NCBI GenBank assembly: GCA_024434165.1
Contig: QMIW01000038.1
Location: forward strand, 1 to 37,552
Direction: 5' to 3'
DNA length: 37,552 nucleotides
Origin: Chloroflexota bacterium
GTDB lineage: Bacteria > Chloroflexota > Anaerolineae > Anaerolineales > Villigracilaceae
This document shows positions 298 to 37,552 of the stretch, in pieces. The stretch's first letter is position 1. Each line of letters opens with the position of its first letter. Made by a program: the position numbers and the translations under genes. The notes beneath the pieces are model-generated. The model searched no databases, was not told where the DNA came from, and saw only the letters and a program-made list of their open reading frames with translations.

Positions 298-1707
298 TCA
301 AATTCCCTCGTCGCGCCGCAGCAAATCCTCCGTCGTCTCGCGGCGCTGAATCAGACGCGCGCTTCCCTCCTCCAGCCACACTACTGCTGGTTTTCGCGCG
401 CCGTTGTAATTGGACGACATGCTCAAGTGATACGCCCCGCTCATGGGGATGGCGATCAAATCCCCTTCTTTGATTTTCGGCATGGGCAGGTCTTCGATGA
501 GGACATCGCCCGACTCGCAATACGGTCCCGCGATGGAGACGACCTCGCTTCGCTCTTCGTGGACGCCTGTTACCGGCAAACAGGAGTATTTCGCCCCGTA
601 CAGCGCATAGCGTGGATTATCTGCCATGCCGCCGTCTATCAACACCCAGGTCTTGCCGCCGCGTCTTTTGACCGCGCCCACGCGATAGACCGCCACTCCC
701 GCCCGCGCCACGAGACTGCGCCCCGGCTCCAAATGCAGGTGGGGGAGTGTCAGCCCGCGTGATTTGCATCCTTCAACCACTGCCTCGGCAATTCCCCGCA
801 CGTAACTTTCAATGGAAGGATGGGGCAACTCGTCTTCGTGATATGCCGCACCCCAGCCTCCGCCCGGGCAGAAATGCCATTCGTTTTTGAAACCGATTTC
901 CTTTGCAAGGTCGAGCGCCAACTCGATTGCGGGAATGAGCGGCTCCGGGTCACGGAAGTTCGAGCCTTGATGGAAGTGAATCCCATTCATAGGCAAACCG
1001 TGTTCTTTGCAAAACGCCGCCGCTTCGAGAATCTCTTCGCGCGTCATGCCGAACTTGCTGTCGTGTTGTCCTGTCTGCGTGTGGGCGTGATGCGTGGACA
1101 CGGCAACGCCGGGCAGGAGGCGGAGCCAGAGGGAAGGCAATTGGTAATTGGTAATTAGTAATTGGGGGTTGGAGATTGGAGACTGGGGAATTGGAGAATT
1201 GTCTGAACGAAGGGTCTCCATGCTGGCAGAGAGATTCTCACCGCGCTGCGGCGCACGTATCGCTTCGCTTAGAATGACATGCAAGCGACGGAGTTCGCCG
1301 AGGTTGTCTACGACGATGACCCCCGCGTGTTGGATTGCGGCTTTCAGGTCGTCATCCGATTTATTCACTCCATGAACGAGGATTTTTTCCCGTGAGACGC
1401 CGCCAGCAACGGCAATGGCGATCTCGCCTTCGCCGGTGCAATCCACTGTCAGGCGATGGAGTTGAGTCCACTGTGCGAGGGCAAGGCAAAGGAATGCCTT
1501 CCCGGCATAGGTCACAGAACCAGCCCCGGGGTAGAAAGAAGCGAGCGCAGATTTATATCCGGCAGCGGCGGAATCCAAAGTCGCGCGGTCGTACACGTAC
1601 AGCGGAGTCTGGTATCGGTCTGCCAGCGCGGGGAGGTTGTATCCTGCGATGTTGAGTTGGTCGTTTTCGATTTTGGCGGTGATGGGAAAGAGGTCGAGGC
1701 GGCGCAT
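298..1707 (-). CDS. lysA: Diaminopimelate decarboxylase (LysA)
   Basis: This PLP enzyme converts meso-diaminopimelate to L-lysine, the last step of lysine synthesis, in the cytosol. The PLP lysine lies in YAGKAF near residue 70. Other visible family motifs are EPGRS, the active-site Cys in CESGD, and the GAYHLSMSSNYN stretch near the C-terminus. The protein has 469 residues against roughly 400-430 in the family. The excess is an approximately 43-residue insert at about residues 145-188, just before LWLRLLPGVAVSTHHAH, encoded by a palindrome plus a heptamer array (1139-1280). The insert keeps the frame. The ATG lies 3 nt after the stop of the diguanylate cyclase gene and has no Shine-Dalgarno, so translation is probably coupled. 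The identification is secure; the effect of the insert on activity is unknown. Confidence 0.95.
   Translation of the reverse strand: MRRLDLFPITAKIENDQLNIAGYNLPALADRYQTPLYVYDRATLDSAAAGYKSALASFYPGAGSVTYAGKAFLCLALAQWTQLHRLTVDCTGEGEIAIAVAGGVSREKILVHGVNKSDDDLKAAIQHAGVIVVDNLGELRRLHVILSEAIRAPQRGENLSASMETLRSDNSPIPQSPISNPQLLITNYQLPSLWLRLLPGVAVSTHHAHTQTGQHDSKFGMTREEILEAAAFCKEHGLPMNGIHFHQGSNFRDPEPLIPAIELALDLAKEIGFKNEWHFCPGGGWGAAYHEDELPHPSIESYVRGIAEAVVEGCKSRGLTLPHLHLEPGRSLVARAGVAVYRVGAVKRRGGKTWVLIDGGMADNPRYALYGAKYSCLPVTGVHEERSEVVSIAGPYCESGDVLIEDLPMPKIKEGDLIAIPMSGAYHLSMSSNYNGARKPAVVWLEEGSARLIQRRETTEDLLRRDEGI
1139..1280. repeat. Composite repeat inside lysA: heptamer array plus palindrome
   Basis: On the plus strand, 1141-1197 reads as near-perfect 7-bp units (TTGGTAA twice, TTAGTAA, TTGGGGG, TTGGAGA twice, CTGGGGA, and a degenerate unit). 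After a linker, 1231-1280 has the GAGATTCT...AGAATGAC ends of a palindromic repeat. Both are read in frame by lysA on the minus strand as low-complexity peptide rich in Pro, Ser and Asn. The heptamer part resembles short tandemly repeated repetitive (STRR) sequences known from cyanobacteria. Confidence 0.8.
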
Positions 1708-5490: not shown

Positions 5491-7278
5491 ATGCACGAAA
5501 CCATCGGTCAACGCCTCAAACGCGAGCGCGAATCGCGTTACATTACGCTGGAAAAGGCGTCGGCAGACACCCGCATCCGCATCGTCTTCCTCCAGGCATT
5601 GGAGGCGGACGATTACTCAGCGATGCCGTCTGCCGCGCAGGGGCGCGGTTTTTTACGCAACTATGCGGAATATCTCGACCTTGATATTGACGAGTTGATC
5701 GCCGAGATCCAGCGCAGCGCGCCGCCCGCCGAAGTCAGCGGACCACTGCCGCAAGTCAACCTCGCCGAGACAGAAATCCCGCCGCTGACCGATGGGCAGG
5801 ATGAAAAAAGCGCCTCTTTCTGGACCCGGCTGCTGTCCCGCCGGCGGAAAGTTGAATCCACGCCTGAGCCGATACGGCCAACGGATAGGGAAGCGGATAA
5901 GCGAATAGTGTCAACGGATGGAGAAGCGGATAAGCGGATAGTGTCAGCGGATGGGGAAGCGGATAAACGGATAGTGTCAGCGGATGGGGAGGAATTGGAT
6001 ACTGTAATCCCTGAACCGTCGAAGGCTCGCAAGGGGAGAAAGAAAAAGGTTGTTGAATCGGCAACCGTTCCACCGGTTGCCGCCGAACCTGTTCAGCACG
6101 CCGAAGAGACGGAGATAAAGCCCACAGCGGAGAGTCCGCTTGAAGGGGGGGAGCAGGTCGAGGTCCGGGGTGAGGCGCGGCAGGGTTTGGGGAGCAGACT
6201 CAAATCGCTTTTTAGAGTCAAAGCCGCCGGGCAGGATTCGCAAGCGGCTGGCGTCGTCGAGCCGCAAGTTGAAGTTGAAGAGAAACCGGAAGAACCAGTC
6301 AGGCAGCTCCTGCCTGCGGATGTAATCTTTGCCGGGATCGGGGCGCAGCTGCGCGAACGGCGCGAGTTGATCAGCCTGACGATTGAGGAAGTGGAACGGC
6401 ACACGCACTTGCGCGCGGCGTTCGTGAAGGCGCTGGAGGAGGGCGCGTTCGATAAACTGCCTTCGCCCGTGCAGACGCGCGGGATGCTGGCGAACTATGC
6501 GGGCTTCCTCGACCTCGATGTGGATGCGATTTTATTGCGCTTTGCCGATGCCTTGCAGGCGCGCCGCCGTGAGAAGTATGCCGAGACGCCGCGCGAGAAA
6601 ATCCAGACGCAGGTCAAACCGTCCATGCCGCTTCTGCGGACGTTCATTGCCGGGGACCTGATCTTCGGCATGATGATGGTTGTGATTTTGGTCACGCTTG
6701 CCATTTGGGGGGTGGGGCGCGTGGTCAGTTTACAGGAGGAGCAAGCCCAGCCCACGGCTCCTTCGATTGTGGATGTGCTGGGCGATGAACCGCTGCCTAC
6801 CGCCTCCGCCGAAGCGACTCTTGCGGCGGACGACCCGGCGGCGACTCAGATTGTGGGGGGCGCAGTTTTGGCTGTGACGGAGGAAGGCACGCCGGAAGCC
6901 GCCGCAAACGTGACGGTAAGCCTTTTTGCGCTGGAGCGTGTGTTCGTGCGGGTTTCAGTGGACGGCGAGATCGTCTTCGAGGGGCGCATGGCTCCGCGCG
7001 AGACCCAGGTGTTCAACGCGGAGAGTCAAGTGGTAATTCTGACCGGCGACGGTTCTGCCTTGCGAGTCACGTATAATGGGCGCGACCTGGGGCTGATGGG
7101 CGGCGCGGGTGAAGTGGTCAACAGCGTGTACACGGTTGCGGGCGTGGTCACGCCCACCGCAACCATCCCGCCGACGCCGACGAATACCCCGCTGGTCACG
7201 CCGACTTTTACGTCCACACCCACGCCCACTTCCACGCCGACGCTCACACCCACTGCGACAGTCACGCCGACGCCATAG
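5491..7278 (+). CDS. RodZ-like membrane protein with two N-terminal HTH domains
   Basis: RodZ links the MreB cytoskeleton to the envelope through an N-terminal HTH, one membrane helix and a periplasmic domain. This 595-residue protein has a first RodZ-type HTH (about residues 1-70) and, after a long charged linker, a second one (about 280-350, GAQLRERRELISLTIEEVE). A transmembrane helix follows (about 385-410), then a DUF4115/RodZ C-terminal-like beta domain (about 470-545). The protein ends in a Thr/Pro-rich tail of about 45 residues. The linker contains three tandem 11-residue repeats encoded at 5880-5978. E. coli RodZ has one HTH and about 340 residues, so the duplicated HTH is notable. 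The neighbour is rimO; no mreB lies in the window. The family call is good; a role in cell shape is inferred. Confidence 0.85.
   Translation: MHETIGQRLKRERESRYITLEKASADTRIRIVFLQALEADDYSAMPSAAQGRGFLRNYAEYLDLDIDELIAEIQRSAPPAEVSGPLPQVNLAETEIPPLTDGQDEKSASFWTRLLSRRRKVESTPEPIRPTDREADKRIVSTDGEADKRIVSADGEADKRIVSADGEELDTVIPEPSKARKGRKKKVVESATVPPVAAEPVQHAEETEIKPTAESPLEGGEQVEVRGEARQGLGSRLKSLFRVKAAGQDSQAAGVVEPQVEVEEKPEEPVRQLLPADVIFAGIGAQLRERRELISLTIEEVERHTHLRAAFVKALEEGAFDKLPSPVQTRGMLANYAGFLDLDVDAILLRFADALQARRREKYAETPREKIQTQVKPSMPLLRTFIAGDLIFGMMMVVILVTLAIWGVGRVVSLQEEQAQPTAPSIVDVLGDEPLPTASAEATLAADDPAATQIVGGAVLAVTEEGTPEAAANVTVSLFALERVFVRVSVDGEIVFEGRMAPRETQVFNAESQVVILTGDGSALRVTYNGRDLGLMGGAGEVVNSVYTVAGVVTPTATIPPTPTNTPLVTPTFTSTPTPTSTPTLTPTATVTPTP
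5880..5990 (+). repeat. Tandem 33-bp repeat inside the RodZ-like gene
   Basis: Three 33-bp units (5880-5912, 5913-5945, 5946-5978) plus a partial fourth differ by a few bases each. They encode the 11-residue unit [T/A]D[R/G]EADKRIVS. The length of 33 keeps the frame, so copy number can vary without truncating the protein. Confidence 0.85.
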
Positions 7279-12164: not shown

Positions 12165-12199
12165 AGTGATCAGTAATCAGTGATCAGTTGTCAGTGGGC
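12165..12199. repeat. Heptamer array across the zinc-ribbon stop codon
   Basis: On the plus strand five 7-bp units run in a row: AGTGATC, AGTAATC, AGTGATC, AGTTGTC, AGTGGGC. The array supplies the stop codon (12184-12186) and last residues of the zinc-ribbon gene and fills most of the gap to murJ. It is the same 7-bp architecture as in lysA and folC with a different unit. Confidence 0.75.
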
Positions 12200-14631: not shown

Positions 14632-15369
14632 CTAGTTATTTGTTGAAACATTTGCTCCAGGTATTATCTCATTGTAATCAACTGGATAAATGTCATCATT
14701 TTCAAATGTTTTCATTGCCTTCCTAAATTTCTCATCTTTAACAAGCTGATCAATTAAGGGCCAATCCTCTGGTTTTAAGCTACCTAAAGTAAGCTGTACA
14801 ACGATTCTCCTTGGACCTTCTGGATCGTCTATTACTTTGGAAAAATTCTTATCCAATGGAAGATTTGAAGGGTGATACCCCGCGACAAACCACGGGAAGA
14901 AGCCGTTTGACCCGTCGGCATTTTTGATTTTCAAGATAAGCACATATTTTCCGTCTACCTGTACCGAGGCGACGGGGACACAGTTGACGACTCCACCTTC
15001 GTTACACACAAGAATAATTTGTTCCGGGTTATTCAGTGTTTCTGCTTGATACTGCACGTCCACAGGCGTCACGCCGTCGGCGAATGTCGGTTCCGTTGCG
15101 GCAAGGTGGGGGATGATTGCATCAAAAATTTCCTGAACGCTTTTGATCTTCGTAAACTCCGCAAGTGTCGGTGCGATGCCGTGAACAAACTCAGGCGGCG
15201 CCTTCGTTGCGGTCGGCTCGGGGGTGGAAGATGGCGTGGGAGGAGGAGTGGGAGTCATGACAAATGATGTCATCGCAGCCTCGGCGCTTGGAGAAGCAGT
15301 TATTGGGGTCACGCCACACCCGTAGATAAACAGGATGCTCCCAGCCAAAATGGGAAGAATTTTTCTCAT
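14632..15369 (-). CDS. Predicted lipoprotein of unknown function
   Basis: This protein of 245 residues begins with a lipoprotein signal peptide, and the lipobox is IYGC near residue 18. A Thr/Pro/Ser-rich linker (about residues 35-60) leads to a globular domain with no family I recognise. I chose the ATG at 15369 because GGAGG lies just upstream at good spacing, inside a longer frame that opens at a TTG. Much of the gene is AT-richer than its neighbours. It is divergent from folC. Confidence 0.75.
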   Translation of the reverse strand: MRKILPILAGSILFIYGCGVTPITASPSAEAAMTSFVMTPTPPPTPSSTPEPTATKAPPEFVHGIAPTLAEFTKIKSVQEIFDAIIPHLAATEPTFADGVTPVDVQYQAETLNNPEQIILVCNEGGVVNCVPVASVQVDGKYVLILKIKNADGSNGFFPWFVAGYHPSNLPLDKNFSKVIDDPEGPRRIVVQLTLGSLKPEDWPLIDQLVKDEKFRKAMKTFENDDIYPVDYNEIIPGANVSTNN

Positions 15370-15413
15370 GGCAACCTCCGTCAAATACTATTTCCCAATT
15401 CTCAAATCCGCCT

Positions 15414-15419
15414 TACAAT
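15414..15419 (+). promoter_or_regulatory. -10 element for leaderless folC
   Basis: TACAAT ends 7 nt before the folC ATG at 15427. No Shine-Dalgarno is present in the gap to the divergent lipoprotein gene. Confidence 0.45.
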
Positions 15420-15426
15420 CCTTATC

Positions 15427-16785
15427 ATGGACATCGAAACCCGATACAACCAAGCCCTGGACTATCTGTACTCTTTCGTGGATTACAGCCTGAAACATTC
15501 CTCGGAACTGGCGAAGGCAGACTTCAACCTCGACCGCATGTTCGCGCTGATGGAGTCGCTGGGGAATCCACAGGCGAAATATCCCATCATCCACGTGGCG
15601 GGGACGAAGGGGAAAGGTTCGGTCTCAGCGATGTGCGCGGCGGGACTAAAGGCGGCGGGATACAAAGTTGGGCTTTATACCTCGCCGCACCTGCTGGATT
15701 ACACCGAGCGGATTCAGGTCAACGGCGAGCCGATTTCGCACGAGCAGTTGGTGGATTTGGTGGAGGAAATCAAGCCGCACGTGGCGAAGATCGAAAAACT
15801 GACCACGTTCGAGATCACCACCGCGCTGGCGTTCATGGCGTTTGCAAAATTCGGCGTAAATGCGGCGGTTTTTGAAGTGGGCTTGGGCGGCAGGCTGGAT
15901 GCGACCAACGTGGTCATGCCGAAGGTTTCGGTCATCACATCGCTTTCCTACGACCACATGGCGGTGCTGGGAAACACGCTCGCGCTCATTGCAGGGGAGA
16001 AGGCGGGCATCATCAAGGAAGGCGTGCCGGTGGTTTCCTCTCCGCAAATGGAGGAAGCGCTCGAAGTTCTCCTGCGCGCAGCCAAATCAAAGAATTGTGA
16101 GTTTACGCTGGTTGGAAGAGATGTGAAATTCAATTTGATCGAAACATCTTTGAGTGGGCAGAAATTGACAATAGACGGTGGACGACAGACGATGGATGAT
16201 GGGCGGTACATGGTCCATGGTCAATCGTCCATCGTCGAATTATTCATCCCTTTGCTTGGAAAACATCAGGTCGAAAACGCCGCCACCGCCTACGCAGCAT
16301 TGAAGGTCAGCGGAATTCCCATCACGGACGAGCAGATTCAAAATGGATTTTCTCAGGTACAATGGCGCGCCCGCTTCGAGATTGCCCGCCTCGACCCGCC
16401 TGTGATATTTGATTCTGCCCATAATCAGGATTCGTTCGCCAAGCTGCGCGACACGCTGGAGACGTATTTCCCCGGCAAGCCCGTCTATCTCATCTTCGGC
16501 GCGTCGGAGGACAAGAACATCCCCGGCATGTTCGCAGAGATGAAACCGAAGATCAAGAAACTCATCATCACACGCGCCGACCATCCGCGCGCTTTGAGCG
16601 TGGAGCATATTCAGGGTCTCGCCGGGCAGGCTGGGCTGGAGTCGGAGGCGGCGGTTCCCGTCAGCGAGGCGCTGCGGCGCGCGTTGGAATTGTCCGCGAA
16701 AGATGGTAGCATTGTATTATCCGCCGGTTCGATGTTCGTGACGGCGGAAGTCATGAGAGAGTTTGAGTCATTGCGGGGAGGGTGA
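15427..16785 (+). CDS. folC: Dihydrofolate/folylpolyglutamate synthase (FolC)
   Basis: FolC joins glutamate to dihydropteroate and extends folate polyglutamate chains using ATP. The P-loop VAGTKGKGS is at about residues 57-65, followed by YTSPHLLDYTERIQVNG, FEVGLGGRLDATN and SYDHMAVLGNTL, all typical of the Mur-ligase-like family. The C-terminal domain contains FDSAHNQDS. An in-frame 21-residue insert at about residues 250-270, encoded by nine 7-bp units, sits between two central-domain strands just before ELFIPLLGKHQVENA. At 452 residues it is slightly long for the family. Confidence 0.93.
   Translation: MDIETRYNQALDYLYSFVDYSLKHSSELAKADFNLDRMFALMESLGNPQAKYPIIHVAGTKGKGSVSAMCAAGLKAAGYKVGLYTSPHLLDYTERIQVNGEPISHEQLVDLVEEIKPHVAKIEKLTTFEITTALAFMAFAKFGVNAAVFEVGLGGRLDATNVVMPKVSVITSLSYDHMAVLGNTLALIAGEKAGIIKEGVPVVSSPQMEEALEVLLRAAKSKNCEFTLVGRDVKFNLIETSLSGQKLTIDGGRQTMDDGRYMVHGQSSIVELFIPLLGKHQVENAATAYAALKVSGIPITDEQIQNGFSQVQWRARFEIARLDPPVIFDSAHNQDSFAKLRDTLETYFPGKPVYLIFGASEDKNIPGMFAEMKPKIKKLIITRADHPRALSVEHIQGLAGQAGLESEAAVPVSEALRRALELSAKDGSIVLSAGSMFVTAEVMREFESLRGG
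16175..16237 (+). repeat. Heptamer array in frame inside folC
   Basis: Nine consecutive 7-bp units (63 bp, 21 codons) include ACGGTGG, ACGATGG, ATGATGG, ATGGTCC, ATCGTCC and ATCGTCG. The two ends form an inverted repeat, 16188-16200 against 16224-16236, at 12 of 13 positions. The array is translated as a Gly/Asp/Met-rich stretch. Confidence 0.75.
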
Positions 16786-22510: not shown

Positions 22511-22665
22511 AACCCGAGTTGCCACCTTCCAATAGATTTTCTAGGTTCCCCGCCCAAAGCCCTCACCCTGCCCTCTCCCATCGGGAGAGGGGGAAGTCAT
22601 CCCAGAAAATATAACCTTGTTTGGGGTGAGGGAAGCCTCTTGAAACCAAGGCAGCAACTTGGGTT
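22511..22665. mobile_element. MITE-like non-coding element, complete copy
   Basis: This 155-bp element has 18-bp terminal inverted repeats (22511-22528 and 22648-22665, 15 of 18 matching). Inside are a perfect hairpin CCCTCTCCC-ATC-GGGAGAGGG (22571-22591) and an outer CCTCACCC/GGGTGAGG pair. It encodes nothing. Positions 22525-22607 are identical over 83 bp to 37469-37551. The right end lies 3 bp from the stop of the ABC permease gene. Confidence 0.75.
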
Positions 22666-37454: not shown

Positions 37455-37552
37455 AACTCAAGTTGCCGCCTTCCAATAGATTTTCTAGGTTCCCCGCCCA
37501 AAGCCCTCACCCTGCCCTCTCCCATCGGGAGAGGGGGAAGTCATCCCAGAAG
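37455..37552. mobile_element. MITE-like element, second copy cut by the window end
   Basis: The left inverted-repeat end (37455-37472) and 37469-37551 match the element at 22511-22665, with 83 bp identical. Its right end lies beyond the window. It sits about 120 bp after the HAD gene. Confidence 0.75.

Follow-up and report, generated by a model that had tools for sequence, protein, structure and literature searches.

Unrelated dispersed DNA repeats occupy the same loops of core enzymes in related Chloroflexota bacteria

Loops of conserved enzymes carry unrelated repeat DNA at the same place in close relatives of one Chloroflexota family. We analysed a stretch of 37,552 nucleotides from a Chloroflexota bacterium (contig QMIW01000038.1 of assembly GCA_024434165.1, hereafter the window), its own genome and the genomes of relatives. 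Arrays of 7-bp units (heptamers), an 8-bp repeat and a hairpin-type repeat that we call PalA are dispersed and specific in these genomes and are read in open frames, and some PalA copies are identical although the genes that flank them are saturated with changes. In our judgement it is probable that such repeats insert genome-wide, that selection removes most of them, and that the in-frame survivors in tolerant loops are later trimmed and overwritten. The balance is even for a more far-reaching proposal, in which core-enzyme loops are landing sites where unrelated repeat families swap in frame within the divergence of species, while heptamer arrays move by copy-and-paste, often as inverted (hairpin) pairs, and rewrite loops proteome-wide.

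The lysA gene of the window holds two such repeats side by side (Table 1). A profile search of the window ORF gave 348.6 bits against TIGR01048 (cut-off 297.9); with frame and score both intact, a lysA pseudogene is ruled out, and the preliminary description was right that the repeats are read in frame. The loop measures 53 residues in the window LysA versus a median of 16 (48 nt) in 80 LysAs. TRF resolved its period-7 array into two overlapping stretches, one of AATTGGT (3.9 copies, 1139–1165, 90% matches) and one of ATTGGAG (5.1 copies, 1161–1197, 70% matches). The array had been described as eight near-identical units, but the units drift, from ATTGGTA to ATTGGAG and ACTGGGG. The neighbouring palindrome is a degenerate PalA copy: its local alignment with the lysA insert of L068, a related locus, scored 44.5, which 0 of 1,000 shuffles reached (maximum 29.5), and 21 of the 22 bases of the head are identical between the two. 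Self-complementarity, which had also been attributed to it, was not recovered. DNA folding of window positions 1201–1285 was no better than that of shuffles (z +0.60, compared with −3.56, −3.57 and −1.60 for the PalA copies of L079, L075 and L106), ruling out a hairpin in this copy, and the sole pairing partner of GAGATTCT lies about 190 bp away.

Table 1. Repeat-bearing genes, loops and repeat elements in the window.
Feature	Position	Strand	Remarks
lysA, diaminopimelate decarboxylase, 469 aa	298..1707	minus	frame open across insert
Hypervariable LysA loop codons, residues 140–192	1132..1290	minus	between predicted helix 136–151 and strand 192–197
Drifting heptamer array	1139..1200	minus	coding-strand units AATTACC / AATCTCC / AATTCCC; peptide approximately SPIPQSPISNPQLLITNYQLP
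Degenerate PalA hairpin-repeat copy	1201..1281	minus	peptide HVILSEAIRA...; 5' part of loop on coding strand
PalA conserved head	1260–1281		plus-strand letters TCGCTTCGCTTAGAATGACATG
Heptamer array AGTGATC	12165..12197	unassigned	outside called ORFs, period 7
folC, folylpolyglutamate / dihydrofolate synthase ORF	15268..16782	plus	stop to stop
FolC hypervariable loop, residues 298–328	16162..16248	plus	heptamer array 16205–16238, inverted partner within 120 bp

In the rest of the own genome, the palindrome part of the window has no close copy (next best E 0.028), which rules out a close genomic donor there. The genome contains six PalA-pattern matches at two or fewer mismatches, probably with the window copy among them. 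The exact inner sequence is not common to other loci either; among 308 loci, only copies of this place were found. In the predicted structure of the window LysA (38 sequences, mean pLDDT 79.9), insert residues 156–186 lie below 50, flanked by a helix and a strand that are both predicted well (block means over residues 151–190 of 53, 39, 38 and 54), and four other short segments are likewise below 50. Helix-to-strand loops of this barrel fold face away from the active site.

Matches to LysA, some of them weak, were obtained in 87 of 120 sampled genomes of the same family, and among the matches listed many break at query residues ~142 and 189. We retrieved 80 named LysA loci with titles such as Chloroflexi/Chloroflexota bacterium, Anaerolineae, Anaerolineales, Anaerolineaceae, Villigracilaceae, Anaerolinea, Brevefilum and Herpetosiphon; the counts below refer to 80 of 110 ORFs, duplicates and the fragmentary rows L129, L133, L135 and L137 being left out. 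Between conserved residues 139 and 194 these 80 LysAs show 18 different lengths, from 13 to 65 residues including one flanking residue, and the standard deviation of length is 8.6 at this loop versus 1.8 at the next most variable site. As had been anticipated, the insert residues of the window are not conserved in the LysAs compared; a conserved LysA domain insertion, being absent from them, is ruled out.

Under the final class rules, 45 of the 80 loops contain a recognised repeat and 35 none; these rules are strict, and L071 was scored as none although its loop DNA has AATTTACCAATTACCAAT. The 45 comprise 25 loops with period 7, nine with PalA, five with the 8-bp repeat CAGGTANA, three with PalC, two with PalB and one, that of the window, with both period 7 and PalA. 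PalB and PalC are putative repeats, so classed because of their hairpins and because both recur in LysA and AroA loops. Period 7 (at least 11 of 14 matches) was present in 26 of the 80 loops versus 0.05% of segments of equal length from other parts of these genes; codon periodicity does not account for it, seven not being divisible by three. Periods 4–6 and 9–12 gave no comparable excess in LysA, and period 8 was the only other clear one (5 of 80 LysA, 4 of 30 FolC and 0 of 30 loops at each AroA site). Palindrome-like sequence is also seen at other places in LysA, near residue 60 (L083, L090) and near residue 385 (L064, L083).

The preliminary description had regarded palindrome and heptamers as a composite insert in lysA. 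Repeats of both kinds, palindrome-type and heptamer, are indeed read in frame together in lysA of this Chloroflexota genome, but they do not form a unit of their own: both occur separately in LysA loops of other species, which rules out a single PalA-heptamer element, and they do so beside at least three more kinds of repeat. Loops in AroA and FolC behave alike. The process is genome- and family-wide and not a peculiarity of a lysA composite.

Similar repeats are common in the window's own genome, as had been predicted for a genuine insertion process. At two or fewer mismatches, AATTACCAATTACCAA has 87 matches in 4.4 Mb, overlapping ones within one array being counted apart, versus 3 for the reversed pattern. 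BLAST of the window insert against the same genome returned at least 28 matches, itself included (40 of 83 candidates scored). The heptamers of this genome have the 7-bp period, tandem arrangement and dispersal by which STRRs are recognised, and we presume that they resemble those of cyanobacteria.

Among 24 genomes of the family, 23 contain the PalA pattern (4–63 matches per genome, controls 0), 20 contain AATTACC (controls 0–1 per genome) and 22 contain CAGGTANA (up to 459 matches, controls 0–5). By eye, PalA begins with (T)GTCATTCT.... Outside the family, AATTACC is rare and was detected in 8 of 188 other Chloroflexota genomes with 1–4 matches each; of the 13 family genomes in the same draw, nine had at least four matches and four had none. 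In the set of 24 genomes, the LysA loops of the four that lack AATTACC have at least 6 mismatches in 14 to an AATTACC array, and the four perfect AATTACC loops belong to genomes with 12–275 matches. The association of loop type with genome copy number is weak (Spearman −0.43, p 0.037, uncorrected for kinship). At a stricter threshold, 100 kb from each of four relatives yielded one period-7 array in two of them and none in the other two.

Arrays are unevenly placed. In a 433-kb sample of the own genome, composed of the window (three arrays, two in ORFs) and chosen stretches, 10 of the 19 arrays fall within ORFs (8 of 16 without the window), which make up 90% of the sequence if taken as longest open frames and not as called genes, at least one of them (L221) unchecked; this is a roughly 8-fold depletion per base, as expected if most insertions are harmful. 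A direct partner within 120 bp accompanies 9 of 80 distinct arrays of the own genome versus 3.8% in the control. For inverted partners within the same distance the figure is 24 of 80, versus 5.1% when flanks were exchanged between arrays, so that a sizeable fraction of the arrays could form fold-back structures.

These data bear on the best surviving alternative, in which polymerase slippage makes the 7-bp arrays locally in each loop, independently of the hairpin inserts. Both an excess of heptameric repeats among bacteria and the idea of slippage are found in print (PMC4692102), units drift within arrays, and the many array families differ in their units and have the period alone in common. 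But the same units are located at many unlinked places per genome and in both orientations, near inverted copies clearly exceed the expectation given above, and PalA, PalB and PalC at the same loop are left unexplained. We therefore hold expansion in place to be unlikely and infer copying as the source of the arrays, which identical dispersed units and inverted pairs favour over growth in place.

Further repeats were noted in the window. Around a GC-rich stretch near the contig start (1–113), an inverted pair AGTAGTCGGTCG ... CGACCGACCACT was seen by eye, possibly another small hairpin element. At 5879–5990, a 33-bp tandem repeat is present in 3.4 copies (92% matches) with GGATAAGC/GGATAGTG, and an 8-bp period at 5920–5940 overlaps it. 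A short tandem unit, GCCCTCACCCT, occurs at both 22559–22579 and 37503–37523; CCCTCTCCC/GGGAGAGGG sequences in AroA loops of relatives may be compared with it.

Is the variety of LysA loops inherited? On a tree of the 80 LysAs, computed by a quick method with the loop left out, loop type requires 31 changes. PalA requires eight, at least six of them forced by starred branches; shuffling gave a mean of 9.6 changes and 27 of 500 shuffles were as low, so that PalA is scattered almost at random on the tree. Outside the loop, L079 (PalA) is 0.908 identical to L120 (PalB) and 0.906 to L089 (8-bp array), L064 (PalA) is 0.904 identical to L067 (heptamers), and pairs with unrelated loop repeats (PalA, PalB, 8-bp, heptamer) range from 0.87 to 0.91.

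Two PalA pairs have identical stretches. The heads of L068 and L079 are identical at 25 of 25 positions, although synonymous third positions of this gene pair are only 0.50 identical; the tails of L062 and L075 agree at 21 of 21, versus 0.42 at synonymous third positions. Such identity against saturated synonymous sites points to recent insertion or conversion and is not easily explained by inheritance. Most other PalA pairs are far less alike, so that the PalA copies are not all recent. As judged from these alignments, the identical pairs speak for insertion more than once, or for conversion by copies elsewhere in the genome, and against inheritance.

Several PalA inserts in distant species have common left and right junctions and a common frame (HV[IT]L...QSDI), which is what a single insertion in the ancestor of the family, passed on by descent without recurrence and diverging since, would leave behind; an old single PalA insertion kept fresh by gene conversion would fit the shared junctions too. 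The two perfectly matching pairs in otherwise saturated genes conflict with descent from one insertion without recurrence, as does the mixture of five kinds of repeat across the LysA tree, and we consider such descent improbable. Target preference, structural constraint or gene conversion could each account for the common junctions and frame.

More doubtful still is convergence at the protein level, with loops selected as Pro/Asn/Gln-rich linkers and the DNA repeats as a by-product. LysA heptamer loops do yield similar peptides at the same place, for example ITNYQLP and IPNSQ. But other peptides at this very site are chemically unrelated (HVILSEAKN, GKQVDRYTGKQV, VVTTSVV), and the identity reaches synonymous positions while copies of the patterns lie elsewhere in the genomes.

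We extended the comparison to AroA (EPSP synthase) and FolC, for which matches were found in 47 of 61 and 39 of 41 genomes, respectively, and the best 30 loci of each (the own gene and 29 relatives) were used. AroA of the own genome carries repeat inserts at residues ~160–190 and 265–295. Among the 30 AroAs, these two sites alone (SD 5.5 and 6.4) combine a length SD above 1 with three or more different lengths; several kinds of heptamers, other palindromes or short loops fill them. Period 7 was present in 12 and 15 of the 30 sequences at the two loops versus 4.6% and 2.9% of same-length segments, control rates that are inflated because each includes the other loop. A solved AroA homologue has gaps at two of the three AroA repeat sites (~160–190, 265–295); the third array, near residue 350, aligns to it almost gap-free and is therefore not an added segment. 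In the 30 FolCs, the length SD of the loop is 9.0 versus 1.1 at the next site, and 13 of 30 loops have period 7 versus 1.1% of same-length segments.

Arrays are found in other known genes as well. A Pfam match was obtained for 24 of the 29 array-bearing ORFs of the own genome that were scanned (25 of 30 by reference, L012 and L025 being overlapping pieces of one glycyl-tRNA synthetase ORF); the scan covered 30 of 36 references, with LysA identified separately and L026:1950–2888, L028, two in L165 and L027 outside the set. Glycyl-tRNA synthetase, RecJ, MoeA, a histone-deacetylase-like protein, a polyketide synthase, an ABC transporter pair, a photolyase and an Mfd-like helicase are among the array-bearing ORFs. 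In the RlmN-like, MazG and Mfd-like ORFs the arrays stand ahead of the first listed domain and thus outside Pfam domains.

Two of these ORFs carry several arrays each. One on contig C123 of the own genome (L002, 1–3054, minus strand) encodes two ABC-transporter units and bears four heptamer arrays. Two adjoin each other between the units, by an LSLSK-type palindrome peptide; a third lies within the first ATPase domain and the fourth ahead of it. The other, on contig C165 (L012/L025), joins glycyl-tRNA synthetase alpha and beta in one ORF; the joint is coded by inverted heptamer arrays and the beta part has further arrays. The repeats may have helped to fuse the alpha and beta genes.

That assembly or binning errors, or ORFs running through intergenic repeats, created these patterns is scarcely conceivable: drafts and MAGs are numerous among the genomes, but 45 of 80 LysAs have a repeat in this one loop, those of the single-contig genomes G063, G008 and G058 included, one stop (G044) occurs among the LysA matches listed, and Pfam and PDB homology resumes on both sides of the inserts.

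Recurrent insertion followed by selection would work as follows. Several families of 7-bp arrays, one 8-bp family and hairpin elements of REP/MITE type would be copied to new sites of the genome, possibly by Y1 transposases, whose domains (PF01797) occur in 24 of 24 genomes, or by hairpin-driven copying. Selection would purge most insertions in genes. Survivors would have no in-frame stop, change the length by a multiple of three and lie in a loop clear of the folded core, as in the LysA loop before strand LWLRLLPG, two AroA loops and one FolC loop. There the insert would be translated and retained in the protein, its residues probably neutral. The resident insert would then drift, shrink by deletion and be overwritten by the next repeat, while the surrounding enzyme would stay conserved.

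Parts of this picture have precedents. CGTC REPs and the Rickettsia elements RPE-4 and RPE-6 are short hairpin repeats that lie within ORFs for known proteins, with lengths of 20–30 aa given for dimers or grouped repeats and 43–82 aa for clusters; the CGTC REPs apparently lack a dedicated transposase, and in many of the repeats the CGTC motif reads TGTC (PMC3733652). PalA is likewise a short repeat in ORFs of known proteins. The described families bear a CGTC or GTAG tag and a stem of 8–9 bp, to which the start of PalA, read by eye, may correspond in its tag. In the account given there, CGTC repeats are reported from five phyla, with Chloroflexi not among them, and GTAG repeats are given for Chloroflexi (PMC3733652). 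Unlike in the systems described in that source, one loop appears here to be overwritten by several unrelated families in related species, and heptamers are involved (PMC3733652). Heptamer repeats are 68% intergenic in Nostoc, and 11% and 7% are intragenic in two xanthomonads (PMC4692102). Like these and the cyanobacterial STRR, the arrays reported here are dispersed, partly intragenic and arranged in inversion; whereas the Nostoc and Xanthomonas heptamers are G-rich and form G-quadruplexes, many families are present here (AATTACC, TCGACCT, CCATCGT, ACTGATC and others), and in-frame reading in loops of conserved enzymes with turnover between species sets them apart from those heptamers as described (PMC4692102). 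The enterobacterial RU-1/2/3 are MITE-like, have open frames, lie inside genes and were proposed as a source of new peptides (PMC2759123). Repeats with open frames inside genes are seen here too, but RU units measure 103–168 bp and are outlined there as single cases per gene, with no mention of a recurrent loop (PMC2759123). Small variable segments that keep the frame are common inside genes within bacterial species (PMC2884548); they are alike in retaining the frame, but that account, in its main lines, does not link them to dispersed families replacing one another.

Intragenic REPs and heptamers were thus already known, and what appears to be new is that repeats of several families overwrite one another in the same loops time and again. 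A search of literature other than subscription journals and preprints found neither such overwriting of one loop in relatives nor translated heptamer arrays in Chloroflexota.

For the family, the LysA loop amounts to an experiment that nature has run in replicate on the conversion of repeat DNA into protein: dozens of species have this one loop filled differently, within an enzyme that is otherwise conserved. Differently filled orthologous sites reveal the boundaries, orientation and relative age of inserts and thereby give a handle on the origin of dispersed heptamers. For annotation, the finding accounts for unstable loop lengths and for odd peptides such as VILSEAKN, ITNYQLP and LSLSK in these genomes.
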